Of a DNA stretch of 64,000 bases, positions 610 through 31,603 are shown one piece after another. This DNA is from Spiroplasma chrysopicola DF-1 (GTDB taxonomy: Bacteria; Bacillota_I; Bacilli_A; Mycoplasmatales; Mycoplasmataceae), in assembly GCF_000400935.1 (NCBI RefSeq), contig NC_021280.1:434001-498000 (forward strand), read 5' to 3'. A program made the translations under genes and the position numbers. Position 1 is the first letter of the stretch. Each line of letters begins with the position of its first letter. The notes under the pieces were generated by a model. The model saw only the letters and a program-made list of their open reading frames with translations, made no database searches and was not told where the DNA came from.

Positions 610-3521
<2,912 letters not shown>

Positions 3522-3700: not shown

Positions 3701-3702
3701 GT

Positions 3703-3923: not shown

Positions 3924-3943
3924 TAATAAAAAAATAACCTAGC

Positions 3944-5219
3944 TGAATATGTCAAGAAAAATAGACAATTAAAAAGTTACTTGAAGGGATGATTTTCTGT
4001 ATTGAACAGGACTCATTCCTTTTAATTTGGCTTGTGGTCTAAAATTATTGTAAAAATAGATATATTTAGGTAGATTTTCAATAATTCATTTGGCTGTTCG
4101 TTTTTTTCTTTTTATATGATATAAAAATTCAGTTTTCATAGTACCAAATCATGATTCTGTATGGGCATTATCATAAGAGTTTCCACATCTGGACATTGAA
4201 ATCGTAATTCCAAGATAATTGCATAATTTTTCATAATCAGAATTTGTATAATGAAAACCTTGATCTGATTGTAGAACTCAAGTTGATGGCTTTCCAGCTT
4301 TTACTCAAGAATTAATTATGTTTTTAAAGACAAATTCTTTTTCTAAATTATTACTGATTTGGTAGTCCAAAATTTCATTAGTATGAAAGTCTTTTACTAT
4401 TGATAAAAAATAGGTTTTGTCGCTTGTTAATAAATATGTTATGTCTGTTCCTATTTTTTGATTAATATCTGTGGTTGAAAAATCTTGATTCATGATATTT
4501 TCATGTCTTTTGTTACCAGAAGATAATTTATAATTAAATTTTTTTATTCTAATAATTGATTTTAAATTCATATTTTTCATATATCTATAGACAATATGAG
4601 GTTTTAAATTTCAATTATATAGTTTATTAATAATTAGTGTTAACATATTATATCCATAAATTTTCTTAAAAGTTAGAAATAACGTTTTAACTATTTTTGC
4701 AATTGTATTATTCCATTTATTAAAAAGTTTCATTCCAGCATTAAATCATTTATAATAACCAGCTCTAGAAACATTTAAAATTTTGCATAAATATTTAATC
4801 TTGTATTTTTTCTTTAAGGACCAAATCGTTTGAAATTTCTTCTTTTTCGATTTGGGCAAGGACTTTTTTACATCTTGAATCATTTCAATATACTCAATTA
4901 ATTCTTTTTTTGTCATTAATTCAAAATTAAGATTTTTTGGACGCCCTGGTCGGCGAATTCCTTTAGATTGTAGACCATTTCCTGGTTCTAACGCTTTTTC
5001 TCCACTAATTTTAACTGCCTTTTTTCAACGAGATAAAGTTGGTGTTGAAATTTCAAATTTTTTAATTGTTTTTGCTCAACCATTTTCTTTGTAATATTTT
5101 AAAATATTAAGTTTTTCGTTTTTTGTAAATCATTTTGTTCCCATAATAAAAGAATACCTTTCAATAAAATTATGACACATAAGTAACTTTTTATGTGTCT
5201 ATTTTATTTTAGGTATTCA
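3944..5219 (-). mobile_element. IS3-family (IS150-like) insertion sequence, copy 1
   Basis: 1276 bases, ends 5'-TG...CA-3'. The imperfect inverted repeats are about 39 bases: TGAATACCTAAAATAAAATA at one end and TGAATATGTCAAGAAAAATA at the other, both leading to AAAAAGTTACTT. It has the same length as copy 2 (30302-31577) and is nearly identical; in the stretches I compared I saw one difference, in the CGTCGACC/CGCCGACC codon. The flanks share only GC as a possible direct repeat, so no clean 3-bp target duplication is visible. The two copies lie in opposite orientation about 25 kb apart. Confidence 0.93.
3969..5144 (-). CDS. IS3-family transposase, single fused frame (copy 1)
   Basis: 391-residue transposase encoded as one continuous frame once UGA is read as Trp. 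An N-terminal helix-turn-helix (EKLNILKYYKENG to STPTLSRWKK) binds the IS ends. A charged helical stretch (ELIEYIEMIQDV) follows in the place of the usual leucine zipper. The C-terminal integrase-like catalytic domain carries D234 (GTDITYLL), D294 (LQSDQGFH) and E330 (AHTESWFG), spaced D-35-E as the IS3 family requires. IS3 relatives normally make this protein by -1 frameshifting between OrfA and OrfB; here no shift is needed. The protein looks intact, so the element may be active. The sequence matches copy 2 apart from a synonymous-looking CGC/CGT change at the one place I found a difference. Confidence 0.92.
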
Positions 5220-5254
5220 GCTTGGTTATTTTTTTATTATGTTAATTTTTAAAA

Positions 5255-6058
5255 TTAGTAATTCATTGTATAAACATTAATATAGACTTCTTGTTCAACA
5301 AAACCTAATTTTTTATATAAAGGAAAACCATCTGGTGTCGCAATTAATCCGACTGTTTGATAACCTTTTGTTTTAGCATAATTCAATAAATGAATTAACA
5401 TTGCTTTGGCAAAACCTTGTTTTTGAAAGTTTTGATGGGTAGCAATATCATCAACAATTGCTAACTCTGATTCCAAGTATAAATTCCCGGTAGTTGCTGG
5501 TTGGTTATCTTGCGTTAAAATTGTAAAATAGCTAATTTTTTCATCTTGATTAATTTCAAAAAGGCTTTGATATTTCGCTAAATCAATTAGGGCCAAATCA
5601 AAAGCATTATGAATAACATTTTTAACTTTTTTAACATCTTCAGGACTATTTATTGTTTGAAATGTGATATTTTCTGCTAAATCATTAGTCATATTAAAAT
5701 TATTTAAATCCAAAAGCATTACTTGGGCTGTTTCAAAGTGTTCTAAACCCTGTTGTTGGTAAAAATCGCGGTCAAGTTGCTGATTATCTTCAGTGATTGT
5801 ACATCATGTAAAAGATTCATTTGCCTCATGGTATTGTTTAATAATTTTTTTGGCTTGTTCTTGTTGAACGGGTGTCAAAATGTATGAGCTTATCACAATA
5901 TTTAAATTGCTTTTTGATGCTAAGGAATCAATATGATGGATTTGTAGGTCTTGATCAACATTAATTTTTTGCTTTCCGTTATCATGTTTAGGGTCTGTCA
6001 TATAAGTAATGAAATTGGCAATTAATTGGTTAATTTTTTTGTTATTAAAGTTAAGCAT
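5255..6058 (-). CDS. GNAT-family N-acetyltransferase
   Basis: 267 residues. The C-terminal ~110 residues are a GNAT fold that moves an acetyl group from acetyl-CoA to an amine; the substrate is not evident. The acetyl-CoA pyrophosphate loop is visible as QNFQKQGFAKAML (Q/R-x-x-G-x-A type), preceded by the beta-strand ELAIVDDIATH and followed by YKKLGFVEQEVY, the usual GNAT end. The first ~115 residues form a separate N-terminal domain without clear relatives. One UGA-Trp codon joins the two parts. The start at 6058 is chosen for the strong ribosome binding site AGGAGG just upstream. It stands alone, divergent from the next gene, and its 3' end runs towards the IS-split terminator. Confidence 0.8.
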
Positions 6059-6204
6059 TTGTCTTCCTCCTATGTTATTATTTTATCATTTTTCCGATCT
6101 TTTGCCTACTGGTTCAATTGAAAGTAAAAAAAACTTAAAACCTTGATTTTTTTAATTATTGATAGTTTATTAAGAGTTTTTATACACATTTTTTCTTTTT
6201 TTGA

Positions 6205-6210
6205 TATAAT
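6205..6210 (+). promoter_or_regulatory. -10 promoter element upstream of the 6274 gene
   Basis: TATAAT within TTGATATAATTAA, about 64 bases before the start codon at 6274. No good -35 box is seen, only T-rich sequence. It lies in the divergent region between the acetyltransferase and the coiled-coil gene. Confidence 0.5.
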
Positions 6211-6273
6211 TAATTTGTTCTAAGCAAGAATAACATATGAAAAATAATTAAGAAAGTAAAAGGAGTTTTTAGA

Positions 6274-6747
6274 ATGGCGGTAAAAAAAACAGTCGCTCAA
6301 GCACCAACTGCAAATATATCAGATTTAATTAATCAAATTATTAATGAGGGTAGTGATTTACAGACAAAAGATGAGGTTCAAGCAATTCGCGAAAAGCAAT
6401 TACATGAAGAATGAATTAAGAAAAATAATGAAGCATGTATTCTTGAAGCAAAAAAATGAGAAGCTAGAATTGTAGCTGCAAAAGAACGCGAAAAAAAACT
6501 TGCAGCGAAAAAAGCAGAACTTGATAAGGTTGATGTTGAAAAAATAGCTAAGTTAGAAGAACAACAAAAACAAGAAATTATTAAGAATAATGCTTTATAT
6601 GAGGAAAGAACTAAAAAACAAATTAAAATGTCAAATATTGCTCGTGTTAAAAATGCAATGCGTGCTAGAAAAAGCATTTTATCAAAAGAATCTTGAGAAA
6701 AAGAATCTCAAAAATGAGAAAAATTATTGGATCAAGTTTCACGCTAA
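6274..6747 (+). CDS. Hypothetical highly charged coiled-coil protein
   Basis: 157 residues, soluble, with no signal peptide or membrane span. From about residue 30 on it is rich in Lys, Glu, Ala and Gln and is strongly helical (stretches such as AAKEREKKLAAKKAELDK and KLEEQQKQEIIKNN), so one long coiled coil is likely. The start follows AAGGAG, a good ribosome binding site. It has its own -10 box and ends in a strong terminator, so it is a single-gene unit. I do not recognise a family. The composition would suit a structural or nucleic-acid-associated protein, but nothing in the sequence settles this. Confidence 0.75.
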
Positions 6748-6751
6748 TAAA

Positions 6752-6788
6752 GAACTAGGATTTTATGCTAGTTTTTTTTTTTTTTTTT
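6752..6788 (+). terminator. Terminator with a 17-T tract
   Basis: Hairpin AACTAG-GATTTTATG-CTAGTT followed by an uninterrupted run of 17 T's (6772-6788). It ends the coiled-coil gene. Confidence 0.85.
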
Positions 6789-6852
6789 AAATAAAGGCCT
6801 GAATTAAAAGGGCATAACCCTGTTGGGAGGGGACTGTTAAAAGCCTTTATTT
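6789..6852 (+). other. GC-rich hairpin element before the 6902 gene
   Basis: An outer inverted repeat (AATAAAGGC near 6790 and GCCTTTATT near 6843) encloses an inner stem GGGCATAACCC and the G-rich motif GGGAGGGGACT. A TATAAT-type box (GGTATAATATT) follows at about 6857. The GGGGACT motif with a TTAAAA-CCTTTATTTT tail recurs before ispG (39078-39135). It may be a terminator or structured leader; its function is unknown. Confidence 0.4.
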
Positions 6853-6901
6853 TCTGGTATAATATTAAAAAGTAAGTTCTTTATAATCAAAGGTGAGCTA
6901 G

Positions 6902-8461
6902 ATGAAAAGTAATGAAATTAAAATTTTAGATGTAAAACCATTTAAAAAACAAGTTAATATCACTAAAGCAGAAGAAGTAGTGTTGATTCCTGAGCAAATT
7001 AATGTTCATAATATGAATCACCACTTTTTTGTCCAAACAAAAACCCCATTAAAGTCGAAAGCTGTTCCAATTAAAGCAAATAAAGAAACGCCAGCGCGCT
7101 TTGAAAAGTTTAATAATAAAGAAATTAAAGATAATAACCAAAAATCAGTTATAAATAATAACTTATCTGTAGCTAAAACAATTGGGGATGCTAAAAAAAA
7201 TGATAAAAATAATATTTATAACCAAGCCCGATTAATTGCTAAAAAAATTGTTGCTGGGGAAAAATCAAGTTTGAATTCTTCTAATAACAATTTAAAAAAA
7301 GTAAATCAAGATCTATTAAGACCTATTTCAAACCCAGAAGCAAAAAATGCTGGACATATTAAAAAAACGAAAATTCAACCTGTTATTGCCGAAAAAGATT
7401 ATTTAGCACCAGTTCCTAATTTAGTTGATCAGTTTACAAAAGTGGAGGAAAAAATCGTTTCATCCCCAAATATTTTTAAAAAATCAACAGGTTCTTCAAT
7501 AATAACACCGAAAACCCATCATAATTTAGCAAAGCTTTTTCCATATTTTCGCAATAATGATAGTTTAAAAAGTCAAAATACTAACGATATCATGGAAAAA
7601 TATCAGTATAATAATGATAAATTTGAAATTGATATTAACAAACGACCAAATTTAAAAGTTGTGACCCCTGAACAATCTTTTGCAAAAGCAATTGGAGAGT
7701 TACCAAACCAAGAAAATCTAGCAAATAATAAATATCGGGAATTAACCTCTGATGGGGAAAGTGATGTCAATCAAATTAATAATTTTTATGCTAGTTTATT
7801 TAGTCTATCTGAAGACGAAATAGGGGTTAAAAAACAGCAAAAACAAAATAAAAAAGATAATAAAGTTAATATTAATGATAAAAATAACCAACAATTACAT
7901 AATACCAATCCTTCGTTTGGTTATAATTATATGGTGAAGGTTCGTAATAATGGAACACAAAAAATTAAAAGAGTTTCAAAACATAAAATTATTAAATGAA
8001 AAAATCCGCTATTTTTTATTGGCCGTATTTTCACTTTAGTAGGGTTTTGTGGGATTTTAAGTTTAATTTTACTTGCTAATATTATCCCAACGAGGGGCTT
8101 TAATTTTTTCCCCGTAATGGAAGATTTATTAGGTCCAATAAAACTAGGTTTTAACCCAAATTCATATTTTAATTCAGCCAAGGTTTTTAATCTTATTGTC
8201 ATTGCTCTATCTTTACTATTCGTTATTTTACCAATTTTATTTGTTCAAGACCACCGAATCTGATTAGGATATGTCTTAATCATTAATGGTGTATTTGTCG
8301 TTTATTTATTATTTATTCTGATTTATCAATATGTATTATTAATTTCAGCAATTAAGATTGAATTTTTATTTAGTGAAATTGCGCTAGTCGGTTGTTTAAT
8401 CATTAGTCAAATCTGTTTTAGTTTTGGGATAAAAACTTATTTTTCTAAAAAGAGCATGTAA
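6902..8461 (+). CDS. Hypothetical membrane protein with long disordered N-terminus
   Basis: 519 residues in two unlike halves. Residues 1 to ~365 are hydrophilic, rich in Asn, Lys and Gln with short poly-Asn stretches, and look disordered and cytoplasmic. After a UGA-Trp at about 366 come four hydrophobic segments (FFIGRIFTLVGFCGILSLIL; VIALSLLFVILPILFV; VLIINGVFVVYLLFILIYQY; IALVGCLIISQICFSFG) that should anchor it in the membrane. The start follows AAAGGTGAG. It lies upstream of mnmA in the same direction, 62 bases apart. No family is recognised. The plan, a long flexible tail on a four-helix membrane anchor, could suit a scaffold at the membrane, but this is a guess. Confidence 0.75.
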
Positions 8462-8523
8462 GAAAAGATTGCATTTCTTTACAAAAGATGTTTAAATTAC
8501 CTTAAACAAAAAAGGGGATTAAT

Positions 8524-9657
8524 ATGAAAAAAGTTATTGTGGGCTTATCAGGGGGAGTCGATTCTTCTGTTGCTTTGTATTTATTACAACAAGCAGGTTA
8601 CCAAGTTGAAGCCTTATTTATGCGCAATTGAGATAGTAATTTAAATAATGATATTTTAGGTAATCAACAAATTAATGATATTATTTGCCCCCAAGAAGTT
8701 GATTATCAAGATGCGAAAGCAGTTAGTCAAAAACTAGGGATTCCAATTCATCGTGTTGATTTTATTAAAGAATATTGGGATTATGTTTTTACTCATTTTA
8801 TTGCTGAGTATAAAAAAGGACGAACACCAAATCCAGATATTTTATGTAATAAATATATTAAGTTTGATTTCTTCTTAAAAACAGCTTTAGAACAATATCA
8901 TGGTGATTATATTGCAATGGGGCATTATGCTCGTGTTACCTATAATGAAACTTTACAAGAATACCAATTATTAAGAGGAGTTGATGCTACAAAAGATCAA
9001 AGTTATTTTTTATGTCAACTTTCCCAAACTCAGCTCGCAAAAACATTATTTCCCTTAGGAGATTTAACAAAACCAGCAGTTCGTACTATTGCTGAACAAT
9101 TAGGATTACCAACTGCTACTAAAAAGGATTCAACTGGGATTTGTTTTATTGGTGAACGTGATTTTAAAAAATTCTTAGAAAATTACATTCCAAACCAAGT
9201 CGGTGATATTGTTGATATTGAAACAAATAAAATTTTAGGTCATCATTCTGGGGTAATGTATTACACAATTGGTCAACGTCGTGGTCTTAATTTAGGAGGA
9301 ATGGCGCAAGCTTATTTTGTTGTTGGAAAAAATGTCGCTAAAAACATTTTATATGTGGCAAATAGTTCGGAAGAACAATGACTGTATTCAAACAGTTGTT
9401 TAGTTAATGATACAAATTGAATTAATAAACTACAAACAAATAATTTTACTTGTACAGCTAAATTTCGTTATCGTCAAAAAGATATTCCCGTTAGCGTCGA
9501 AATTTTATCACCAACAAGTTGTTTAGTGCGCTTTGTTGAAAAAGTAAAAGCTATTACACCTGGTCAATCAGCTGTCTTTTATCAAGGTGAAGTTTGTCTT
9601 GGCGGGGGTGTAATTGAAGCTGCTTATTTAGATGACACAAAATTATGATATTTGTAA
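8524..9657 (+). CDS. mnmA: tRNA-specific 2-thiouridylase MnmA
   Basis: 377 residues, full length. MnmA adds sulfur to C2 of the wobble uridine in tRNA for Lys, Glu and Gln, using ATP and a persulfide sulfur donor. The N-terminal PP-loop SGGVDSS lies at residues 9-15. Two catalytic cysteines sit in the usual contexts: TPNPDILCN and [17 protein letters not shown] and the C-terminal beta-barrel region ([13 protein letters not shown] onwards, ending in [16 protein letters not shown]) also match the family. Three UGA-Trp codons occur near the C-terminus. The gene starts after AAAAGGGG and is followed 15 bases later by recD2, so the two are probably co-transcribed. Confidence 0.96.
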
Positions 9658-9672
9658 ATAAAAGGGGAAATT

Positions 9673-11826
9673 ATGACAGTAATTAAAGGTTATTTAAAGT
9701 TAATTGTATTTGAATCAGCTAATGGTTATCGAATTTGTAAGTTTCAATTAGAACATGATCGTAATCATCATATTTTTATTAAAGGTTTTTTAATGGAAAT
9801 GCACCAAGATCAACTGTATGAATTAACAGGGGAAGTAAAAAATAATCCTCGTTATGGCCAAAATTTTGAAGTCCAACAAATTAAAAAAATCATGCCCCAA
9901 ACAAAAGATGATTTAATTCGTTATCTATCAAGTGATTTATTTCCAACAATTGGGGCCAAAACAGCTGAGGTGATTATTAATCATTTTCAAGAAGATGTCA
10001 TTAATAAGATTAAAAATAATTTAGCAACATTAAATGATATTAAGGGTTTAACGCCAAATCAAGTTAAAATTATTCAAACAACGTTTAGTAAAATGACCCA
10101 AGAAGATGAAATTAATCACTTATTTAGTCAAAATAATTTATCATTACAAATTTTGTCACTATTAAAAACAAAATATGATGTTGATCAAATTATGGCAATT
10201 TTACAAAAAGACCCTTATTCATTATTGTTAAAAGATAATATTAGTTTTAAAGCCATTGATAAAATCTTTTTAACGTTTAATTCTAACCCAACCGATTATA
10301 TTCGAATTGGCTATTATGCTTGGTATTATGCCAAAGAATTTTGTAATAGCACCGGAGATACTTATTTAGAATTAGAACAGTTAACAAAAATATTACAAAA
10401 GAATTTTGTTACAGTGACAAAAGAAATTATTTTAGCTGGATTAAAATATGTTAAAAATTTAAATTTATTAATTTTTAAAAATGAAAAAATTTATGTCGCT
10501 GAAATTTATCATAGTGAACTTAATATTGCCGCTTTATTAAATAGTTTAAATACTAATGCTGCAATTAGTGTTGATGAGGTTAATACTATTTTTCAGCAAG
10601 TTGAGGCGCAAAAACAAATTAGTTATAATTTGCAGCAAGTTAAAGCAATTAAAGAAGCAGTTTTAAGTAATTTTTTATTAATTGTTGGGGGTCCTGGAAC
10701 TGGTAAAACAACTGTTGTTGATGGAATTGTTAGTATTTTAAAAAAAAGTTTTAAAAATAATAAAATTATTTTAGCGGCGCCAACCGGGAAAGCCGCTAAA
10801 CGCTTGCGTGATAAAACAAAACAAAAAGCAGTAACAATTCATAAATTATTAAAATATGATCCCTTAACAAATCAATTTTTCCATAATGAGAATAATCCAC
10901 TTGAAATTGATATTTTAATTTTAGATGAAGTAAGTATGGTTGATACATTATTATTATCAGCCATTGCAAAGGCAAGTTTAAATCTTAAGAAACTTATTTT
11001 AATTGGGGATGTTAATCAATTACCATCAGTTGCTTGTGGCGATGTTTTACGTGACATTATTGGTACTGACATTTTTAATGTTGTTCCTTTAACAGAAGTC
11101 TATCGTCAACAAGAAGGAAATGATATTTTAGAATTAAGTTATGCAATTCAGCAAGATTATTTTGAATATCATTTTGATAATAAACAAGATGTTAAATTTA
11201 TCAACAGTAGTAATTCAAATGAAATTTTAAACACAGTTGGGGAGTTATATCAAAATTTAGTCAAGCAACATCAAGGGCAATATGATCAAATTCAAATAAT
11301 TGCCCCAATGTATAATGGGACCCTCGGCATTAATACCCTTAACAATTATCTGCAAAATAAAATTAATCCTGATTATGGTCAAAAACATTGTAAAATTGGT
11401 TATCAAGAATTTCGGGTAAATGATAAAGTGATGCAATTAAAAAATCGCCCTGAATTAGAAGTATATAATGGCGATGTTGGAATAATAGTAGATATTAAAC
11501 AAGATAAAGATTTAAATAATATTTTAATTATTCAGTTTGATGAGCAATTAATTAAATATAGTCCAGAACTGTATTATGATATTACTTTAGCTTATGCTTG
11601 TAGTGTTCATAAGCTACAAGGTAGTGAATATGAATACGTTATTTTTGTCATTACAAAAGCTTTTTGAATTATGTTAAATCGTAACCTAGTTTACACCGGA
11701 ATTACCCGTGCTAAGAACCAATTATTTTTATTAGGCGAACAACAAGCTTTACATTATGCTGTTAATAATGTTCTTAAAAAGCGTAAAACAACGCTCGGTG
11801 AAGTTATTAAAGATTTTAAAGGCTAG
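9673..11826 (+). CDS. recD2: RecD2-type (RecD-like) superfamily 1 DNA helicase
   Basis: 717 residues, a 5'-3' SF1B DNA helicase of the RecD2/YrrC type that works without RecBC. An N-terminal OB-like region and a helix-hairpin-helix stretch (FPTIGAKTAEVII, around residues 95-125) come before the motor. Walker A is GGPGTGKTT at 339-347, followed by APTGKAAKRL, the Walker B region ILILDEVSMVD, GDVNQLPSV (motif III) and a C-terminal UvrD-like domain with TLAYACSVHKLQGSEY and VYTGITRAK. One UGA-Trp codon lies near residue 666. Its last 11 bases overlap the 3' end of the convergent gene on the minus strand, with no terminator between them. Confidence 0.95.
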
Positions 11827-12283
11827 TTATTAGCAACATAATAAGACTTGTTGTTAAGACAATGATTGCTGTTGCTAAAATAATTTTTCGCGCTTTTTTA
11901 ATCGTTGCTTCTTCCTCAGTTAGTGTTGGTTGATAACGGCGCCGTGAATCGTTAAAATATTGGGCTGCTTGGCGGTTTTTTTGTCAGCCAAGGATAAATC
12001 ATAAGACTAATAAAATTACGCCAAAACCAACTAAAACTCATTCAATTTTTTTGATATCTTTTAGGAAAACAAGGCCAATAATAAAGCTAAAACCAATAAT
12101 AATTGTGCAAAGACTTAATATAATTAAATAGTGTCAATATTGCAGTTTTTTTCATTTTTGATAATTCTGCAATTTTTCATTTTTATTAGTATTAACTTCC
12201 TTAATTGTGGCAGCCACTTCTTGGGCATGCGCTTTTTTTTCGGTTGATCTTAATCCTTTTAGTTTATTTTTTGTTTTTGCCAT
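11816..12283 (-). CDS. Hypothetical three-span membrane protein
   Basis: 155 residues, readable only with UGA as Trp (five such codons). The N-terminus is basic and charged. Then come two adjacent membrane segments (LIILSLCTIIIGFSFIIGLV and VLVGFGVILLVLWFILGW), a cytoplasmic-looking charged stretch (RRRYQPTLTEEEATIKKAR), and a last hydrophobic segment (IILATAIIVLTTSLIMLLIT) at the very end. No family is recognised. The stop codon lies inside recD2, overlapping it tail to tail by 11 bases. Confidence 0.75.
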
Positions 12284-12395
12284 TTTTTCTTATTCCTTTA
12301 ATTTTTTTATTATTGTAGTTAAATTTTATAATAAAAAGAGCATTTTCTTGTCTTTTTTAATAATTTTTGAATAAATATTTTAATGTTTAGAGAAA

Positions 12396-12424
12396 TTGAC
12401 TATTATTTGGCTCTATGCTAAGAT
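12396..12424 (+). promoter_or_regulatory. Promoter of the 12497 gene
   Basis: TTGACT (12396-12401), 17 bases, TAAGAT (12419-12424). It lies about 70 bases before the start codon at 12497. The -35 box and spacing are near consensus. Confidence 0.55.
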
Positions 12425-12496
12425 TTTAACAATAGAAGTTATGAATTTATTATCATAACAAACTAAGCATACTATTTTGGAAATGAGGAAAATTAA

Positions 12497-13285
12497 ATGA
12501 TTGCTTTTGAAGATTTTTGAATATTTATTGCTAATTATTGAGAAGGAATTGTTGCGATTTTATCTTTTATTACCACAATTTTATTAGGATTAATTTCTTA
12601 TAATGTTCAAATTAAAAACTATAAAAAAAACTTATCGCGCTTAATTAAGCGCGATAATAATAGTTTTCGTAAACTAATTAAAAAAACAAAGGTTGATAAT
12701 AATAGCATTTTATTTAAGAGTTATTTACAAGCAAAAATGGGATTTGTTTTAAATGATGAAAATGGTAATGAAGATAGTCAAAATTATTTTATTTCTTTTC
12801 GGGAATATCAGTTAATTAAATTTATTTTTAAAGAAATTCACAAACATTTAGTTAATTTTATCTATATTTTAAAATTGGTTGAAGAGTACCATATTGATCC
12901 AACTAATCTAGAAATTTCAAAAAAATCAAAACTACCAGAATGTTTGGAACTATATAAAGGTTTGCTTGATGAAAAAAAAATACCTCCCATCACTGAAAAA
13001 GACTATTATATTAATAGTGTTTATGATTTTAGTGGGAAATTAATCACTGAAAATCAAATTGCTGAAGAAACATTACAAGAACAATATAATTTCTTTTTAA
13101 AAAATGACCGTGAGGATATGGTAATTTCAGTTTTAATAAAAACAGATAAAAAAGAAGAGCAAAAAACGCCGACAACTAATAATAAAGTTTATTTTTCGGT
13201 AAATACAGCTGAAAAACGACATTTAATAAAAGCAGCTTTTAGAACGTTAGAACAAAATGATTATTTAAAAAAAGAAGGAAATTAA
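12497..13285 (+). CDS. Hypothetical membrane-anchored protein
   Basis: 262 residues. One N-terminal membrane span (GIVAILSFITTILLGLIS, residues about 17-34) is followed by a basic stretch and a long hydrophilic, mostly helical domain, so it is a bitopic membrane protein. UGA-Trp codons occur at residues 8 and 15, so the gene is easy to miss if UGA is taken as stop. The start has GAGGAAAATTAA upstream. It sits alone between recD2 and the opp operon. No known domain is recognised. Confidence 0.75.
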
Positions 13286-13493
13286 GTAAGATTAATTTGC
13301 TTTTTTATTTATTTCCACTATTATTCAATTAATAAACTTTTTTTAGAAAATAGTTGTTAAAATTGCAATTATTTTTAAACTATGATATATTTAATTAATA
13401 TTATATTTTAATATTAAACTTTGAATTATAAGTTAATTATGCAAGAAATCAATACAGGAACTAGATATTTTAACAAAGGAGGTCGAAAATTAT

Positions 13494-14750: not shown

Positions 14751-14766
14751 GAAAGGGAAAGAAAAA

Positions 14767-15756: not shown

Positions 15757-15771
15757 AAGGAGTTATAATAT

Positions 15772-17463: not shown

Positions 17464-17479
17464 AGGAGGAAAACGATAA

Positions 17480-22531: not shown

Positions 22532-22547
22532 GGGAAATGTTATAAGA

Positions 22548-22580
22548 CTAAAGCCAGTTTTTGTGGTCTTTAGTTTTTTT
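22548..22580 (+). terminator. opp operon terminator
   Basis: Hairpin CTAAAGCCA - loop - TGGTCTTTAG followed by seven T's, 17 bases after the last opp-operon stop codon. Confidence 0.8.
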
Positions 22581-22680
22581 CTTGTTAAATTAACCTTTAA
22601 TTGTTATTGCAGTTTATCAAAAAAAATGCTTTAATCAAAGAGGCTAATCATCAATTACATCCTAGAAAGGAAAAAAAGAT

Positions 22681-23820
22681 ATGACAGTTGTAGCATATAT
22701 TTTATTAGGAATAATTTTATTTGTCTTACTATTATTCTTAGTGTTATATTTAATAAAATCAAAACAAAAAAATTTAAATAATAATGATTCAATGGTTTTG
22801 CAAAAAGATATTCAAGCATCAAAAGATTTATTAGAACAGCAAGTTCGCAATTTACAAGAACAATTACAGTATCAAAAACAAGAATTAGCTGCTTTAATTG
22901 GTCAATCAATTAATAATGATCAAAAATTTAAAGAAAATTTGGCGTTATTAGCGCAAGAACTTGGTAATTTTAAATTAACTGCTGATAAGCAAGATAGTGA
23001 TTTAAAAAATGTTTTAAATACACAAGGTCAATCAGTAGCCAAATCATTAACTGATGTTTTAAATAATTTAACAGTTTTAGCAAAATCAACTAATACTTTA
23101 GAGGAAGTTGAAAAAAAAGTTCGTAGTTTAAATGATATTTTTTTAAACAATAGTAAAAAGCGAGGAAACTTGGGAGAGTATTCTTTAGAAAAAATTTTAG
23201 CTGATATGTATGGGGAAAATCAAAATATTTGGCAGCGGCAATATAAATTACCAAATGGAGGGCTAGTTGATGCGGTTTTAAAAACGCAAGGTGAAAAGGA
23301 AGATATTGCGATTGATGCTAAGTTTTCATTCACAAATTACAATAAATATTTAGAAGAAACCGAAAAAACAAATCAGGACCGTTATTTAATCGCTTTTAAA
23401 AATGATTTAAAAGTCCGCGTTAATGAAGTAGCAAAATATATTAATCCGGAAAATAGTATTTCAAGTGCAATTATGTTTATTCCTTCCGAAAATGTTTTTT
23501 CTTTTGTTTATGCGCAATTTCCTGATGAATTAATTTCCTATGCCTTTAAACAAAAAGTATGAATTACATCACCAACCACTTTATCAGCCATTTTATTTAT
23601 CATTGAAAAACACTCACGTGAAATTGCTTTTAATAAAAGTATTGAAGTGATTCGTAAAAATTTAATTAATATTAAAGGGGAATTTGATCGTTGAGAAGGG
23701 CGTTGAAAAGGTTTTCTAAAAAATTATAAAGATTTAAATGGTTCAATTGATGAGTTAGAAATTACGCATAAAAAAATTAATAAAGAATATGAAAAGATTT
23801 TTGATAATAATTTAGAATAA
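22681..23820 (+). CDS. rmuC: RmuC-family DNA recombination-associated protein
   Basis: 379 residues. An N-terminal membrane span (VAYILLGIILFVLLLFLVLY) is followed by a coiled coil of ~130 residues rich in Gln, Leu and Lys. The RmuC nuclease-like domain follows: KKRGNLGEYSLEKILADMYG, then LVDAVLKTQGEKEDIAIDAK with the conserved DAK, and IMFIPSENVFSF. RmuC limits DNA inversions at short repeats in E. coli; the fold resembles restriction endonucleases. UGA-Trp codons occur in the C-terminal part. The gene starts after AGAAAGGAA and stands as its own unit. Confidence 0.92.
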
Positions 23821-23893
23821 GTATATAACTATTGAGATATAATTAGTTTAGTTTATAATTAAAGTGATATTAAATTTTAGAAAGAGGAATATT

Positions 23894-24451
23894 ATGATTA
23901 GTGTAAATGATTTTCGCCCCGGAATAACTTTTGAATATGAAGGTAATATTTATGTTGTTCTGGAAGCCCAGCATTCAAAATCTGGTCGTGGTCAAGCCCA
24001 TGTTAAAGCAAAAGTAAAAAATTTACGAACAGGTTCAACAACAATGATTACTTTTACTGGTGGAGATAAAGTAAGTAAAGCAATGATTGATAAAGTTGAA
24101 ATGCAATTTTTATATGATGATGGATCAAATGCAATTTTTATGGATACTGCAACATATGAACAATTAGAAATTCCTTCAGAACGATTAATTTGAGAAAAAA
24201 ACTTTTTAAAAGAAGGGGTAATGGTATCAGTTAGTAAGTTTGAAGGTGAAGTAATTGGGATTGTTTTACCAGATAAAATTGATTTACAAATTGTTGAAGC
24301 CGAAGCGGCAATTAAAGGGGATACAACATCAGGAGCAATGAAAAAAGCTGTCTTAGAAACAGGTTGAGAACTTTTAGTTCCTTTGTTTATTAAAGAAAAT
24401 GAAATAATTACTGTATCAACTGCTGATGGAAAATACTCAGGACGAGCATAA
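23894..24451 (+). CDS. efp: Translation elongation factor P
   Basis: 185 residues, the usual length, with three beta-barrel domains. EF-P enters the ribosomal E site and rescues ribosomes stalled on proline runs. The start MISVNDFRPG at 23894 follows AGAAAGAGG and matches the family; an upstream in-frame ATG gives a non-homologous extension and is rejected. The tip loop that reaches the peptidyl-tRNA reads HSKSGRGQAH, with Arg32 where B. subtilis and E. coli carry the modified lysine. Domain 3 ends in the usual way (STADGKYSGRA). A promoter with TATAAT-like boxes lies at about 23830-23865. The next small gene is 17 bases downstream. Confidence 0.96.
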
Positions 24452-24468
24452 GTAAGGAGAAAAATACT

Positions 24469-24771
24469 ATGGAAAGTAATAATTTATTGATTGAAAAAAA
24501 TTATCGGGGAGAATTATTAGTTAGTTTATTAGCCGTAAAAAAATTAGTTTCGTATGCTTTACGTGATATAGCAAACCGTTTTTTTATTGATGAAATTAAA
24601 TCTTGTTTATTTGATGATAATTTTTTATTACATATCTTTATTAGTGGGCGTGTAATTAGCGAAGAAAATCTTACTGCCTTAACACAAGAAATTAATGAAG
24701 TAGTTATTAATGAGATTAATTATGCTTTAAAATTAAAACCAAAAAATATTAGTATTACTTTTCATCACTAA
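24469..24771 (+). CDS. Small Asp23/Gls24-like protein (tentative)
   Basis: 100 residues, acidic and soluble. The order of predicted strands and helices, the position directly after efp, and the end (ALKLKPKNISITFHH, a final beta-strand) recall the Asp23/Gls24 (YqhY) family that follows efp or sits near it in Firmicutes. The sequence match is weak and the family hallmark glycines are not clear, so this is a guess from context. It probably shares a transcript with efp, since the gap is 17 bases and a strong terminator follows. Confidence 0.55.
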   Translation: MESNNLLIEKNYRGELLVSLLAVKKLVSYALRDIANRFFIDEIKSCLFDDNFLLHIFISGRVISEENLTALTQEINEVVINEINYALKLKPKNISITFHH

Positions 24772-24813
24772 CTAAAACTTTATTTTAATTAGAAATTATT
24801 TACTTAACAACAT

Positions 24814-24860
24814 AAAAACAGTTTTTCGGATTATTAATCCGAAAAACTGTTTTTGTTTTT
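24814..24860 (+). terminator. efp operon terminator
   Basis: Perfect 19-base-pair stem: AAAAACAGTTTTTCGGATT, loop ATT, AATCCGAAAAACTGTTTTT, then TGTTTTT. It is one of the longest terminators in the window and can work in both directions. Confidence 0.92.
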
Positions 24861-25040
24861 GTAATGATAACAAGATTAATTTTATTATTTTTATTAAATT
24901 AATTGATTTTTAATAACTTTGGGGATATAATAAAAAACATATTATTTTATGATATTTTTTTATTTAAAAATAACTTGGTAAAGGGATATAATATTTTAAT
25001 TTATTATTGGGTTTAAATAGAGAGGAAGCGATATTATTTT

Positions 25041-26825
25041 ATGCGAGAAAAAAAGCAAACAAAAAAATTTAGTTTAGCTGATTTTGTCTGACTAGGTTTC
25101 AACTATACCGTTTCAGTTGGGTTTATTGGTAATTTTGCTGTTTTGTCAAATGTTACATCAGACTCTGATCCAATTGGAATGCATGTTGTGTGAGTTTTCG
25201 CTGTGGAAGGATTAGTGGCGGGAATTTGTGCTTGAGCTTTTGCTAAAATGGCAAAAATTCATCAATCTAATAATAATGGTGCTGCTTACATTTATGTTCG
25301 AACATCATTTGGGAAATTTTGAGGAATTTTTGTTGCTTTTATGCAATATGTTTCATTACCATTTTTAATTACAATCCAAGTTATGATGCTAATTCGCGGT
25401 GCATTTGGCGTTGATTTTGTTGCCCAAGAGGTTAGCAAAGGGCATTATGTATTACCCTGGTATGCTGCCAACTGAGGTGCATTTGGTGATTTATGATTAG
25501 ATTTAATTGGAATTCTAATTTACATGTCAGCTTCGGCAATTATTTTTGGCGGAATGAAATTATATCGAAAATTGGCAAATGGGACAGGGATTGTTAAATG
25601 AGCAACAGCTGGTTTTTTAATTATTGCGGGTTTAGCATTAGCTTTTCAAAAAGGTCCAGAGAATTTATCTTATTGAGGTGAGAATAGCCATTTTTCCTTG
25701 CCGGGTTTTGTAAAAGCGTTTAATTCATGTTTCTTCTTTTTTGCTGGGTTTGAAACTTTTTCAACTGCGGGGAAAAATATTATTAATCCTGAAAAAAATA
25801 TTGGGCGTGGAATTACTCTAATTATGTTTATTAGCACAATTTTTTATATTGTTATTTCAATTATTTTCTTTGCTGCTTTTAACAGTTTTGTCCAAAATAT
25901 GAATATGGGGACATGAAATAGTTTTAATAATAAAGTAATTTTATATGGAGGGCCAATTATAATGATTATTTCCTCCTTTGCCCTCAAAGTAAATGTCGCA
26001 ATGCAAAATGCCCTATATGGTGGAACGTCAATCCAACCTATGGCAACAGAAGGTTATTTACCTGATCGATTTCGTAAACTGAATAAAGATGGTTTACCAG
26101 TTCGAGCATCAATTTTAAATTTATGCATCACTGTATTAATGATTTTTGTTTGATTAGCAATCCCGGATTTAATTAAGGGAATTTCATTATCATTAAAACA
26201 TGGGATGTTTCCAACAATTAATGATATTCTTGCGTATAAACAACCATTTAATATTTCCTCATTAACAGAAGCTGCTTCTGCGATAGTAATTTTTATTTAT
26301 GCAATGGTAATTGCCGTGACTTTAAAATTAGGATTTCAGAAAAAAATTAAAATCAAAATTTGAGAATGAATTGTTTTTCCGGTTGTGTTATTAGTTTTAG
26401 GATTTGTTTTTGGATGACATTATTATAGTTTAGTTAATGGTGTTATTACAAGTTCCCAAGATGATTTTCAAAGTAAATTAACGGGGGCAATTATTGAATT
26501 AGTCTTTATTATCAGTTCAGTTTCATTTGCAACAATTTGATACTTTACGTATTATCGTCGAAAATATCTACAAAGAATGCAAACAAATCCAGCTTTACAA
26601 GCAAAATTAGATAGTGAGTTTGTGATTAGTGATGATTTAAAATATGTCACAAAAGATCTACGTAATGAAGTTATTGAATATTTAAAACGAAATAAAGCAT
26701 TATCAAATGGACAAGAACCACCAAATGAGAATTATCAAACGGCCAAGGCATTACTTGATAACATTAATGGCATCTATGAAAATTTAGAAAAAAAAGAGCA
26801 AGAAAATGGAGAAAATGATGACTAG
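25041..26825 (+). CDS. APC-superfamily amino-acid permease
   Basis: 594 residues with about 12-14 predicted membrane spans. The start resembles APC transporters (SLADFVWLGFNYTVSVGFIG, with the unwound helix-1 glycines). The conserved helix-6 region is seen as FFFAGFETFSTAGKNIINPEKN, and ALYGGTSIQPMATEGYLPDRF is the typical loop after helix 8. A ~80-residue hydrophilic, acidic C-terminal tail ends the protein. The substrate is probably an amino acid but cannot be told. The gene has its own promoter region (TATAAT-type boxes at about 24925 and 24988) and a terminator, so it stands alone. Confidence 0.88.
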
Positions 26826-26827
26826 AG

Positions 26828-26862
26828 AAACAGGTTTTAATTAACCTGTTTTTATTTTTTCT
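26828..26862 (+). terminator. Terminator of the permease gene
   Basis: Hairpin AAACAGGTT - TTAATT - AACCTGTTT followed by a T-rich tract, starting 3 bases after the permease stop codon. Confidence 0.88.
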
Positions 26863-26942
26863 CTTTGGGATTAAAATTAGTAAAAAATTATTCAAAATTT
26901 CCAAATTAGAATAATTTTTTTCTTAAGTTTCTTATTGAATTC

Positions 26943-27003
26943 TTGATTTTTTTCTATTTTTGGTATATTATGGAGTTAATGTTAAATAAAAGTATTTAAC
27001 ATT
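26943..27003 (+). promoter_or_regulatory. Promoter and leader hairpin of the spiralin-like gene
   Basis: TTGATT (26943-26948), 17 bases, TATTAT (26966-26971). The transcript would begin just before a perfect 11-base-pair hairpin, AATGTTAAATA-AAAG-TATTTAACATT (26978-27003), ending 9 bases before the ribosome binding site AAGGAAGG. A 5' hairpin on an abundant surface-protein mRNA could protect it from decay; that role is inferred. Confidence 0.6.
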
Positions 27004-27024
27004 AGTAAGGAAGGAACAATTATT

Positions 27025-28044
27025 ATGAAGCGTTTATTAGCAATTTTAGGTGCGGTCGGTTTAACAGCAACTGGTTCAACAGCAGTAGTTGCATGTAGTA
27101 AATCGAGTGACACAACGAAAGCAAACGATTTATCAAAAATAAAAAGTTTTGAAGCGCCAACAGCCTTTAAAGCAAATGACTATACAACTGTAAAAGAAGC
27201 GGATGTTAAAAAAGCTTTAAAAAATAGTGTTTTAATCGAAGTTCAAAAACTTGTAAGCACTGCAACTGAAAGTGATTATACTTTTGGTGTTTATAATGAT
27301 GGAAGTGGTGGAGAATATGCTCCTGTTGATGTTTCAGAAAACAGTAAAAATGTTTATGTAAAAGTTAAAGCCGCAACTACTACAAAAACAGACCCTGTTC
27401 TTATCGGTGAAACAGGGTACATTAAGGTTACTTTACCAGCTGTACCAGACTTTGTTAAGGGAGATCTTTCAAAGGTTACAGTAATTGCACCAGCACCAGT
27501 TGAAGTAGCTGAAGACCCAAGTAAAGTTACAATGGATGAAGTTAAGGATGCTTTAAAAGATACTGTTTTAGCAGCAGTTAATAGTGTTGCTTTAGCAGCT
27601 GATGGTACAGATTTTACTTATAAAGTTTCTAGTGATGATCAAGGTGTAGAAACAAATCCAATTGATTTAACTACTGAATCACAACCTGTTTTTGTTAAAA
27701 TTACAGCAAAAACTGATAATGCACTTCTTGAGAAAGCAACAAATTTCATTAAGGTTACTTTACCAAGATTTAAATATGATTTAGGATTAAAAGAAATTGA
27801 GATTGAACCAGTAGAAGTTGTAAGAAGTGATAGTGTAGAGGCAGTTCCAAAAACACATGTTATGAATAGTTTAAAAGATAATGTTTTAACTGCAGTTAAA
27901 ACTGTTGTATCTACTGCAACCACAACAGATTATAAATTTGATATTTTTGCTGATGCCTTAGAAACACCTTATAAAGAGGTTGATATAACAACAAATGACC
28001 CTGTTGATCGAACAGTTTATGTTGAAATAACAGCAACAAAATAG
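27025..28044 (+). CDS. Spiralin-like repeat lipoprotein, N-terminal part (frame ends at a frameshift)
   Basis: 339 residues. The signal peptide (KRLLAILGAVGLTATGSTA) ends in lipobox VVAC. The mature part is made of spiralin-type repeats of about 110 residues: each has a DLSK/I-start, a helix with V-T-x-x-E-V-K-x-A-L-K, a middle strand (DYTFGVYND or DFTYKVSSD) and an end VYVK...GYIKVTLP. The string ETGYIKVTLP is, from memory, also found in S. citri spiralin, the main surface lipoprotein of that species. Two full repeats and most of a third are read before TAG TAG at 28042. The next frame continues the third repeat without a gap, so the gene has shifted by one base in the run AAAA at 28038-28041. 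No cysteine other than the lipid-anchor Cys is seen. Confidence 0.88.
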   Translation: MKRLLAILGAVGLTATGSTAVVACSKSSDTTKANDLSKIKSFEAPTAFKANDYTTVKEADVKKALKNSVLIEVQKLVSTATESDYTFGVYNDGSGGEYAPVDVSENSKNVYVKVKAATTTKTDPVLIGETGYIKVTLPAVPDFVKGDLSKVTVIAPAPVEVAEDPSKVTMDEVKDALKDTVLAAVNSVALAADGTDFTYKVSSDDQGVETNPIDLTTESQPVFVKITAKTDNALLEKATNFIKVTLPRFKYDLGLKEIEIEPVEVVRSDSVEAVPKTHVMNSLKDNVLTAVKTVVSTATTTDYKFDIFADALETPYKEVDITTNDPVDRTVYVEITATK

Positions 28045-28765
28045 TAGTGAAATTCTTAGAGGGACATCAGACCCTATTGAAGTAGTGCTTCCAAAAGAAC
28101 AAAGAAAAGATCTTATGACTCTTGGAGTTATTGCTGCTCCATCAATTTGGCCAAATGATCCAAAACACGTAACAGCGCAAGAAATTAAAAATGCATTAAA
28201 AAATAATGTTCAAACAGCAATTGAACAAATTCAACCCAAAGCAAAATTGAATGTTGACTATGATTTTACTGTTTCTCGTGATGATCATGGAGCAATAATA
28301 GATACACTTGATTTTACATCATCTATCGCTGCTAATCGAACAGTTTATGTTATAGTTAGATCACTTGATGATAGTGGTTATCTTAAAAATGTATCAAATG
28401 CTAAGGATGTAGTTTTTACACAAGATACAAGATCAGATATTAGTACAGTTGATACTATTGCTGCTCCATTAACTGTTCCTGCAGAAGATGGTAACGCAGT
28501 AACAGAAGCAGAAGTTCGTGCAGCATTAAACCCCAAAGTTGTTGATGCAGTTAACGCTCTTGATCCAACACCTAATGTAAGCATAAATGATTTAACTTAT
28601 GCTATCTACACAGATGAGCAAGCAGAAACAATTTTACCAGATACTATTGATTTAGTTGGTGATGCTTATCCAGTTTGAATAATAATTACAGCTGAGTCAA
28701 ATAACCAAAAAATTTGAGGAAAAACACAAACTCCTATTAATGTAATACTTCCAAAAATTGTTTAG
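28040..28765 (+). pseudogene. Spiralin-like lipoprotein, out-of-frame continuation (repeats 3-5)
   Basis: Reading on in the +1 frame from the AAAA run gives NSSEILRGTSDPIEVVLP, which completes repeat 3, then two more full spiralin repeats (starting DLMTLGVIAAPSIWPND and DISTVDTIAAPLTVPAED) and a normal end NVILPKIV before TAG at 28763. Without the extra A the whole gene (27025-28765) would encode about 579 residues with five tandem repeats. It has no start signal of its own. The reading frame is otherwise intact, with codon use like that of the first part, so the shift is recent, is a sequencing error, or is bypassed. Confidence 0.8.
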
Positions 28766-28824
28766 CATTAAAAAATTTTAATTTAATAACAAGTTCACAG
28801 TTTTAAATAACTGGGATTTTAAGT

Positions 28825-28868
28825 AAAAAATGCTTTCGCTTCATATTGAAATGAAAGCATTTTTAAAT
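28825..28868 (+). terminator. Terminator after the spiralin-like gene
   Basis: Hairpin AAAAAATGCTTTC ... GAAAGCATTTTT with a loop of about 15 bases, 60 bases after the final stop. Its position after repeat 5 supports the view that the whole 27025-28765 stretch is one gene. Confidence 0.82.
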
Positions 28869-29058
28869 TTAAAACCTTTTTTTATTTATTTCACATATGT
28901 AAATTGGATAATTATTTCGTATATCTTTTACTTCTAAAATGTTGTGTAATTAAAATTTACTGTTATTATTATGTTTATAAAATATTTTTATATTATATAT
29001 TTTTATTATTTACCATGATATGCTAAAATAATTTATGGAAGATATCAAGGGGGAAAAG

Positions 29059-29688
29059 ATGTTAGATCAGAAAGAAGTTCAAATTTTAGCAATTGCTGGG
29101 GGAACAGCAAGTGGTAAAACAACAGTTGCCAAAAAAATTGCCCATATTTTAAAAAATCAAAGAATTGTTTATTTAGCAATGGATAGTTATTATAAGTCAT
29201 TAGATAATCTGAGTTTAGTCGAACGGAAAAAAATTAATTTTGATCATCCCAATGCTATAGATTTAGATTTATTAATTTCACATTTAACTAGTTTAAAACA
29301 AGGAATGGATGTTTTACGACCAATTTATGATTTTACGCAAAATAATCGCTTAAAAGAAACCGAACTTGTTAAAGCAGGAGATGTGATTATTTTAGATGGG
29401 ATTTTGGCCTTAGCAATTGAAGAAATTCGCAAATTATCTAATATTAAAATATTTATTAAAACAGAAGATGATATTCGTTTTATTCGGCGTTTAACTCGTG
29501 ATATTGAGGAACGGGGACGAACTGTCCAGGATATTATTCATCAGTATTTAGCAACTGTTAAACCAATGTATGAATATTTTGTTGAACCAAGTATTAAATA
29601 TGCTGATATTATTGTTCCTTATTATGAAGGAAATGAAATCGCCATTGATATGATTGCCACAAAAGTCAAAAGTTTGTTAAAAAGATAA
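29059..29688 (+). CDS. udk: Uridine kinase
   Basis: 209 residues, phosphorylates uridine and cytidine to UMP and CMP in the pyrimidine salvage that mollicutes rely on. The P-loop is GGTASGKTT at 14-22. AMDSYYKSL, NFDHPNAIDLDLL and the lid RRLTRDIEERGRT, then QYLATVKPMYEYFVEPSIKYADIIVP, are all standard for Udk. The start at 29059 is chosen because AAGGGGGAA precedes it at the right distance; an in-frame ATG 24 bases upstream lacks such a site. greA follows after about 95 bases, the order seen in many Firmicutes. Confidence 0.95.
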   Translation: MLDQKEVQILAIAGGTASGKTTVAKKIAHILKNQRIVYLAMDSYYKSLDNLSLVERKKINFDHPNAIDLDLLISHLTSLKQGMDVLRPIYDFTQNNRLKETELVKAGDVIILDGILALAIEEIRKLSNIKIFIKTEDDIRFIRRLTRDIEERGRTVQDIIHQYLATVKPMYEYFVEPSIKYADIIVPYYEGNEIAIDMIATKVKSLLKR

Positions 29689-29782
29689 TGTTTATTGGTA
29701 CAAAAGATAGTATTTTTTTAAAGAATAATGTTATAATAATCAAGTGTTAAATAAGCAATAAAGTAATTAGAGGAGTGATTTT

Positions 29783-30259
29783 ATGATGCCAAATGAAGAA
29801 ATTTTATTAACAAAAGAGGGAATCAAAGATTTACAAGCAGAATTAGATAATTTAATTAATACTGTTCGTCCACAAGTAATTGAAGAATTAAAGGAAGCTC
29901 GTGCCCAAGGGGACTTGTCAGAAAATGCTGACTATGATGCTGCACGAAATCGTCAAGCTGAAGTTGAAGGACGAATTAAGCAAATCGAAGGTTTATTAAC
30001 AAAAGCTAAAGAAATTAAAGAAGTTAAATCAAAAGCCGGAGTTATTAAATTAGGAAGTAAAGTTACTTTTACAAATTTATTATTAAAAAAAGATTTTGAA
30101 ATTAAAATTGTTGGAGCTGTTGAAGCAAATCCATTTGAAAATACAATTTCAAATGAATCTCCAATTGCTAAAGCAATTATAGGCAAAAAAGTTGGAGAAA
30201 CTGTTGAAATTAAAGGAATTCAAACACCTTATAAAGTAACTATTGTTTCAGTAGCATAA
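29783..30259 (+). CDS. greA: Transcription elongation factor GreA
   Basis: 158 residues, the usual length. GreA enters the RNA polymerase secondary channel and promotes cleavage of backtracked RNA. The N-terminal coiled coil carries the acidic tip in GDLSENADYDAARNRQ (residues about 44-59), with the two acidic residues needed for cleavage. The C-terminal FKBP-like domain ends in KKVGETVEIKGIQTPYKVTI. Two adjacent ATGs start the gene; AGAGGAG precedes them. The natural terminator of this gene is the hairpin interrupted by IS copy 2. Confidence 0.96.
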   Translation: MMPNEEILLTKEGIKDLQAELDNLINTVRPQVIEELKEARAQGDLSENADYDAARNRQAEVEGRIKQIEGLLTKAKEIKEVKSKAGVIKLGSKVTFTNLLLKKDFEIKIVGAVEANPFENTISNESPIAKAIIGKKVGETVEIKGIQTPYKVTIVSVA

Positions 30260-30301
30260 AATAATATTTCTTAATTTAGATCAAGAAAAGAGTTAATGTA
30301 A

Positions 30302-31577
30302 TGAATACCTAAAATAAAATAGACACATAAAAAGTTACTTATGTGTCATAATTTTATTGAAAGGTATTCTTTTATTATGGGAACAAAATGATTTACAAAA
30401 AACGAAAAACTTAATATTTTAAAATATTACAAAGAAAATGGTTGAGCAAAAACAATTAAAAAATTTGAAATTTCAACACCAACTTTATCTCGTTGAAAAA
30501 AGGCAGTTAAAATTAGTGGAGAAAAAGCGTTAGAACCAGGAAATGGTCTACAATCTAAAGGAATTCGTCGACCAGGGCGTCCAAAAAATCTTAATTTTGA
30601 ATTAATGACAAAAAAAGAATTAATTGAGTATATTGAAATGATTCAAGATGTAAAAAAGTCCTTGCCCAAATCGAAAAAGAAGAAATTTCAAACGATTTGG
30701 TCCTTAAAGAAAAAATACAAGATTAAATATTTATGCAAAATTTTAAATGTTTCTAGAGCTGGTTATTATAAATGATTTAATGCTGGAATGAAACTTTTTA
30801 ATAAATGGAATAATACAATTGCAAAAATAGTTAAAACGTTATTTCTAACTTTTAAGAAAATTTATGGATATAATATGTTAACACTAATTATTAATAAACT
30901 ATATAATTGAAATTTAAAACCTCATATTGTCTATAGATATATGAAAAATATGAATTTAAAATCAATTATTAGAATAAAAAAATTTAATTATAAATTATCT
31001 TCTGGTAACAAAAGACATGAAAATATCATGAATCAAGATTTTTCAACCACAGATATTAATCAAAAAATAGGAACAGACATAACATATTTATTAACAAGCG
31101 ACAAAACCTATTTTTTATCAATAGTAAAAGACTTTCATACTAATGAAATTTTGGACTACCAAATCAGTAATAATTTAGAAAAAGAATTTGTCTTTAAAAA
31201 CATAATTAATTCTTGAGTAAAAGCTGGAAAGCCATCAACTTGAGTTCTACAATCAGATCAAGGTTTTCATTATACAAATTCTGATTATGAAAAATTATGC
31301 AATTATCTTGGAATTACGATTTCAATGTCCAGACGTGGAAACTCTTATGATAATGCCCATACAGAATCATGATTTGGTACTATGAAAACTGAATTTTTAT
31401 ATCATATAAAAAGAAAAAAACGAACAGCCAAATGAATTATTGAAAATCTACCTAAATATATCTATTTTTACAATAATTTTAGACCACAAGCCAAATTAAA
31501 AGGAATGAGTCCTGTTCAATACAGAAAATCATCCCTTCAAGTAACTTTTTAATTGTCTATTTTTCTTGACATATTCA
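30302..31577 (+). mobile_element. IS3-family (IS150-like) insertion sequence, copy 2
   Basis: 1276 bases bounded by TGAATACC... and ...GACATATTCA with about 39-base imperfect inverted repeats. It is flanked by a 3-bp direct repeat TAA (30299-30301 and 31578-31580), the size expected for the IS150 group. It is nearly identical to copy 1 at 3944-5219 but on the other strand. It was inserted in the loop of the greA terminator. Intact ends, an intact transposase and a clean target repeat suggest recent movement. Confidence 0.95.
30377..31552 (+). CDS. IS3-family transposase, single fused frame (copy 2)
   Basis: 391 residues in one frame with UGA as Trp. It has an N-terminal helix-turn-helix (to about residue 45), a basic linker (GIRRPGRPKN), a charged helix, the RAGYYKWF motif typical for the start of IS3 OrfB, and an rve-type catalytic core with D234, D294 and E330. 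Only the last part of the core contains long stretches without UGA, so under the standard code it looks broken. The ATG follows GAAAGG. No OrfA stop or slippery overlap is found between the two usual halves, so the OrfAB protein is the direct translation product. Confidence 0.93.
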
Positions 31578-31603
31578 TAAAATTAACTCTTTTCTTTTAT
31601 TTT

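Follow-up and report, generated by a model that had tools for sequence, protein, structure and literature searches.

Two element copies in the window

The window, a 64,000-nt stretch of the genome of the wall-less bacterium Spiroplasma chrysopicola DF-1 (contig NC_021280.1, positions 434,001 to 498,000), holds two copies of an insertion sequence of the IS3 family, and each of them splits a terminator-like hairpin at its center (Table 1). Without the element and one target repeat, the flanks of copy 2 join into a perfect 15-bp stem with the 5-nt loop GTAAA, in which the target TAA is central (folding energy of −25.4 kcal/mol for 80 nt); this is exactly the hairpin after greA that an earlier note on this DNA had described. 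The same operation on copy 1 yields 16 perfect pairs around a 6-nt loop with a central 2-bp GC repeat (−18.9 kcal/mol for 80 nt), a better fit than the insertion near a loop that the earlier note had claimed. The span that it gave for the pair, 3926-31596, took in hairpin arms at its outer ends; both copies are real, and the element itself measures 1276 bp.

Table 1. Positions in the window of the two element copies, the hairpins that they split, and greA
Feature	Position	Strand	Remarks
IS3-family element, copy 1	3944..5219	-	1276 bp, TGAATACC...ATATTCA; 99% identical inverted pair with copy 2
Transposase of copy 1	3969..5180	-	single 403-aa frame, code 4
Left arm of terminator-like palindrome split by copy 1	3924..3939		
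Target repeat of copy 1, GC	3942..3943; second copy 5220-5221		center of 6-nt loop
Right arm of palindrome split by copy 1	5224..5239		
IS3-family element, copy 2	30302..31577	+	1276 bp
Transposase of copy 2	30341..31552	+	single 403-aa frame, code 4; rve, rve_2 domains
Left arm of hairpin after greA, split by copy 2	30283..30297		
Target repeat of copy 2, TAA	30299..30301; second copy 31578-31580		
Right arm of hairpin after greA	31582..31596		
Element left end	30302..30371	+	~40-bp imperfect terminal repeat, inner block TAAAAAGTTACTT
Element right terminal repeat	31538..31577	+	same inner block as reverse complement
greA, upstream of hairpin hit by copy 2	29783..30259	+	Pfam PF03449 and PF01272 (GreA_GreB domains)

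Against the curated IS3 transposase model NF033516 (cut-off of 160), the copy 2 protein reaches 248 bits, and against the IS481 model it stays at 64.8 bits, below the cut-off of 224; its integrase core exceeds the cut-offs of the Pfam models rve, rve_2, and rve_3. The terminal inverted repeats are imperfect and ~40 bp long (TGAATA../..TATTCA). Target repeats in the IS3 family are usually 3 to 5 bp long; those of the element are 3 bp in 10 of the 11 copies scored in this genome and 2 bp in the remaining one. Two overlapping frames joined by a frameshift, the usual IS3 layout, are absent from both window copies, each of which has a single frame, and since PMC1525189 words that layout as no more than usual, we did not treat a single frame as excluding the family.

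At the left end of the element, bases 1 to 70 (window positions 30302-30371 and 5150-5219) fold as one long hairpin (−25.0 kcal/mol) that stops just before an ATG at 30377. This hairpin could terminate transcription entering from outside or mask the start in read-through transcripts. Positions 1-3734 of the window hold a ribosomal RNA operon (3′ part of the 16S gene, 23S, and 5S) and, after it, a 14-bp terminator-like hairpin at 3703-3734, which carries no insertion.

Copies across the genome are centered on palindrome axes

The genome as a whole (G000; one contig of 1,123,322 bp) contains 20 matches to the element, namely, nine near-full copies (L001 to L009) and a number of pieces. We scored the 11 copies that retain two ends and a target repeat: the nine near-full copies plus copies A (595.65-596.85 kb) and B (518.74-519.75 kb), which have internal deletions. 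Scoring left out pieces C and D, whose ends have decayed, as well as E, which is a duplicated end, and F, a 66-bp palindrome. Each dyad score is the best run of pairs about any axis at most 4 nt from the center of the repeat.

Ten of the 11 copies score at least 11 with an axis offset of 0 to 2 nt, and the median over all 11 is 15. Such scores are found at 0.40% of nearby positions (p = 1e-23) and, in the window, at 0.39% of all positions and 1.8% of intergenic ones; scores of 15 or 16 within 4 nt occur at 0.08% of window positions. Chance placement is rejected on these backgrounds, as the earlier note had argued from two insertions. An independent RNA folding measure agrees: stems of at least 8 pairs carry the target in their apical loop at 9 of the 11 sites versus 21 of 440 control positions. 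It misses L009 and also L002, in which the hairpin is strong but the target falls in a small loop inside it. The check proposed in the earlier note, to cut out every copy and fold the empty site, thus supports targeting in 10 of the 11 copies by the dyad score and in 9 by folding. Both hairpin arms survive at 10 of the 11 sites. The target repeats of L001 to L009 (TAC, CTA, TTT, TAA, AGT, GC, AAT, TTA, and TAA) have no consensus.

The near-identity of the copies suggests that the element was active recently. Pieces C (L013/L015, 856.4-857.0 kb) and D (L014/L016, 657.5-658.1 kb) are both bordered by terminator-palindrome arms; a clean target repeat was looked for at both, and none was seen. Because they share one internal deletion (element bases 186-842), a nonautonomous derivative of this type has probably transposed as well. 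At ~527.57 kb (L155; L019/L020), a 66-bp near-perfect palindrome consists of two element left ends placed head to head in AT-rich flanks, without a clear target repeat, and is possibly a miniature derivative. Copy B (L011/L012, 518.7-519.7 kb) has its left end, together with the flank on that side, duplicated ~111 kb away at L018 (630.6 kb), which points to rearrangement at a copy of the element.

The hairpins pre-date the insertions and are probably hit repeatedly

A comparison with a sister genome (G013; 1,107,344 bp) places these sites in context. All four copies scored in that genome have a dyad of at least 11, its axis no more than 2 nt off the repeat center (p = 3e-10). With open reading frames (ORFs) called mechanically at a minimum of 70 amino acids, 13 of the 15 sites in the two genomes are no more than 45 nt from the 3′ end of an ORF (10 of 11 in G000 and 3 of 4 in the sister genome), and none of the 15 is inside an ORF; the sister-genome site L092 lies 314 nt from the nearest called ORF 3′ end. 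The flanks are A-rich on the left and T-rich on the right. From these features, we infer that the hairpins are functional transcription terminators, probably a harmless spot for the host in a crowded genome. That the element targets terminator hairpins, the central claim of the earlier note, is in our view nearly certain for these two genomes; in other lineages, it applies in part.

Eight of the G000 sites (L001 to L008; L007 only partly) align across the target to element-free sites in the sister genome. These empty sites retain the hairpin, with paired substitutions in the arms that are visible by eye, for example, at L005, so the hairpins pre-date the insertions; the alternative that insertion itself made them is ruled out by the same eight sites. 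The region of L009 is rearranged in the sister genome, the terminator of copy B is occupied there, and neither site A nor L092 has a match among the stretches compared between the two genomes.

Three of the four sister-genome copies occupy terminators that also bear a G000 copy (C/L072, D/L083, and B/L117). The first two sites match on both flanks; for B/L117, 297 nt match on one flank, and on the other, the match read by eye is limited to the arm plus a brief stretch of similarity (alignment score of 43). With ~446 such dyads per genome, as estimated from 379 kb, the chance of at least three shared sites is p = 8e-5, or p = 4e-4 if only dyads of at least 13 are counted. Element orientation is opposite between the genomes in all three pairs, for which reason a single ancestral insertion was rejected; we read the shared terminators as independent hits, although in-place inversion between the hairpin arms may account for the flips. 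By eye, what appears to be one terminator (AAAAACTAGTGTTAACACTAGTTTTT, with similar flanks) recurs at L125 (G001), L139 (G004), and L129 (G012), occupied in different species by elements of two different lineages that point in opposite directions.

Relatives in other lineages target terminators to different degrees

Related elements in other Spiroplasmataceae were scored at a looser threshold, a dyad of at least 9. The relative in G070 (42 to 43% identity; 25 long copies of 28 matches) reaches it at 15 of 25 sites, against a background of 1.4% (p = 4e-22), and reaches 11 at 6 of 25. Corresponding values are 1 of 3 in G255 (p = 0.04; three of four near-full copies used) and 6 of 12 in G331, G276, and G046 (p = 1e-9; 56 matches, of which 14 were tried and 12 placed, the rest being mostly short pieces). 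In G176, which belongs to another family of the same class, all seven matches were used, and three have such a dyad (p = 4e-6); the matched frames there have no stop codons.

The closer relative in S. ixodetis (62% identity) behaves differently. Of 50 loci considered, 39 were scanned (L021 to L059) and 28 used (10 lacked paired ends, and 1 had a duplicate flank); 20 of the 28 sites lie inside ORFs. Dyads of at least 9 occur at 3 of 28 sites (p = 0.0065) and of at least 11 at 2 of 28 (p = 0.002), both above background, so a slight dyad preference remains there. Copies in random or in-gene positions, which the earlier note named as evidence against targeting, are thus found in this relative, and L009 is a further such case. 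The S. ixodetis SHM copies L021 to L056 are 1342 to 1346 bases long, differing by 1 to 4 bases, and vary in whether one frame runs through (L021 versus L029 and L055), a variation that may reflect control by frameshift or slippage.

The control is a distant element in G012 with 29% identity. From its 42 matches, 30 loci were taken and 25 of these placed with loose ends; 0 of the 25 sites have a terminator-type dyad, and among 15 placed with exact ends, 0 have a dyad of at least 9 and 4 lie inside ORFs. Outside the scored sets, L129 and L133 in G012 and L125/L139 in G001/G004 look by eye like terminator hits, while L131 and L135 in G012 and L121 and L123 in G001 are unconvincing as such. A tree of ten rows, some of them partial, with one long outgroup branch and one inner branch supported at only 80/76, places the S. 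ixodetis element between targeting lineages, so that targeting was either lost there or gained more than once; this tree leaves out the G012 control element, whose frame was not found open.

How the target may be recognized

The arms of the target hairpins vary from site to site, and the terminators that are hit form a subset. Both arms carry AAAA, at positions −14 to −11 relative to the axis, in 12 of 14 hit dyads versus 35 of 89 terminator-like dyads of the sister genome, and an arm contains GTTA or TAAC in 10 of 14 versus 18 of 89. This composition recalls the ends of the element, both of which carry the inner block TAAAAAGTTACTT. Hit arms match AAAAAGTTACTT of that block at 9.2 of 12 positions and the 89 other terminator-like dyads at 7.7 of 12 (p = 1.7e-5), in a test that covers one lineage and 14 hit dyads; none of 500 shuffled-tail controls did as well. 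Against random positions, the inner block of each lineage, oriented with its A-tract outward, matches the target flanks in all six sets (p = 2e-4 to 1e-10), and the opposite orientation gives no signal in five of the six. The S. ixodetis block (..GTAACCTT) is unlike that of S. chrysopicola, and the S. ixodetis targets, which are mostly nonpalindromic, match their own element's block; several of them contain sequences readable as TTGTAA-like half-sites. Once the A-tract is left out, only the S. chrysopicola lineage and S. ixodetis are matched best by their own block.

We consider it likely that this is a recently active IS3-family element that inserts into intrinsic (Rho-independent) terminators, most plausibly by reading their arms as half-sites that resemble its own ends. 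In the mechanism that we propose, two transposase protomers would bind the two arms as inverted half-sites, each composed of an A-tract and a GTTA-like motif similar to the inner block of the terminal repeats. With protomers on paired arms, the two-fold axis of the complex would fall on the axis of the palindrome, and two strand transfers staggered by ~3 bp across that axis would leave the 3-bp (once 2-bp) repeat in or beside the loop. In this mechanism, the transposase would bind the arms as duplex rather than as cruciform.

Several observations weigh against this interpretation. L009 has a dyad score of 4, a weak palindrome between divergent ORFs, and dyads fall below 9 at 10 of 25 sites in G070, 6 of 12 in G331 and its relatives, and 4 of 7 in G176. 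The block without its A-tract scores below controls in G070, G331, and G176; when whole blocks are swapped, the targets of G070 and G331 fit the block of another lineage slightly better; and the four sister-genome sites also give a signal in the opposite orientation (p = 0.025). The orientation of the inner block relative to the cut is opposite in element end and target, so the geometry is not that of a simple copy. In terminators, a hairpin occurs together with A and T tracts, so that readouts of structure and of sequence are not fully separable. Finally, the test of resemblance to the ends was devised after the arms had been inspected. Given this post hoc design and the failures of the A-tract and swap comparisons, we assign half-site readout a moderate probability.

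The strongest competitor is recognition of structure, in which the transposase would engage an extruded cruciform or single-stranded hairpin of any sequence and perform strand transfer in the exposed loops. The absence of a consensus among the target repeats and the apical-loop location of most targets agree with it, as does the somewhat greater strength of hit dyads compared with the average (p = 0.02), a weak effect that also weighs against the interpretation above; IS1272, moreover, targets hairpins of little primary sequence conservation (PMC4923244). Recognition of structure alone, however, does not predict that the terminators hit should be a subset marked by AAAA and GTTA/TAAC, nor that S. 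ixodetis targets mostly without a palindrome should match the end block of their element, and we regard it as the less likely explanation, though one to be taken seriously. Coupling to transcription, whereby a paused RNA polymerase or an R-loop at the terminator would expose the target, draws on the proximity of 13 of 15 sites to ORF 3′ ends. It is improbable, as orientation shows no bias (sites between codirectional ORFs split 4:3 in G000 and 5:5 in G070), and 3 of 11 sites in G000, 3 of 4 in the sister genome, and 12 of 25 in G070 lie between convergent ORFs. Survivorship, that is, random insertion followed by loss of all copies except those in terminators, gains something from the scarcity of noncoding sites (82% of the window is in mechanically called ORFs) and is nonetheless very improbable, since so few intergenic bases qualify, the insertions are centered on the axis to within 2 nt, and the distant G012 element has 0 of 25 at such sites.

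Half-site readout of the arms admits a more specific version, which we put forward tentatively and with somewhat less than even confidence. In this version, the element ends carry a half-palindrome like one terminator arm (A-tract plus GTTACTT), one DNA-binding surface of the transposase both holds the ends and finds terminators, and a change in the inner block, as in S. ixodetis, redirects or abolishes targeting. If end mimicry of this kind is true, the target choice of a transposon is written in its own ends, and targeting could be reprogrammed by changing the ends together with their binding domain.

Significance and comparison with known systems

The related transposases with and without terminator targeting form a counted natural series, which opens the question of what determines target choice among IS3-family elements to direct testing. 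The same data suggest a way in which an insertion sequence may last in a genome that is dense and reduced, as well as a reason for the presence of insertion hot spots at certain terminators. Searches of the open full-text literature, judged by title and start of abstract and with most subscription papers outside it, listed no paper recognizable as describing an IS3-family element with intrinsic terminators in general as its target.

Three known systems bear comparison. IS1397 and ISKpn1, also of the IS3 family, insert into palindromic repeat units of enterobacteria, with the transposase held responsible for target choice (PMC1525189). The earlier note had drawn this parallel, which is apt as regards insertion inside palindromes and incomplete otherwise: the targets of IS1397 and ISKpn1 are one repeat family (REP/PU), whereas those of the present element are different terminators with differing arms, and the evidence here leans toward end-like half-sites more than toward the hairpin alone. 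IS1272 and TnSha1, of the IS1182 family in staphylococci, target hairpins of which several have been shown to be terminators, in both orientations and with repeated hits of one terminator (PMC4923244), all of which has its counterpart in the present element. IS1272, however, inserts without a target repeat and with loss of part of the hairpin (PMC4923244, PMC5678879), while the present element keeps the hairpin, leaves a 2- to 3-bp repeat at its axis, and has a transposase of another family. Group IIC introns likewise use terminators as an insertion niche, but they are retroelements and insert downstream of the stem-loop (PMC3522654). What sets the S. chrysopicola element apart from these systems is the combination of an IS3-type transposase, a short target repeat, and insertion at the axis of different terminators.

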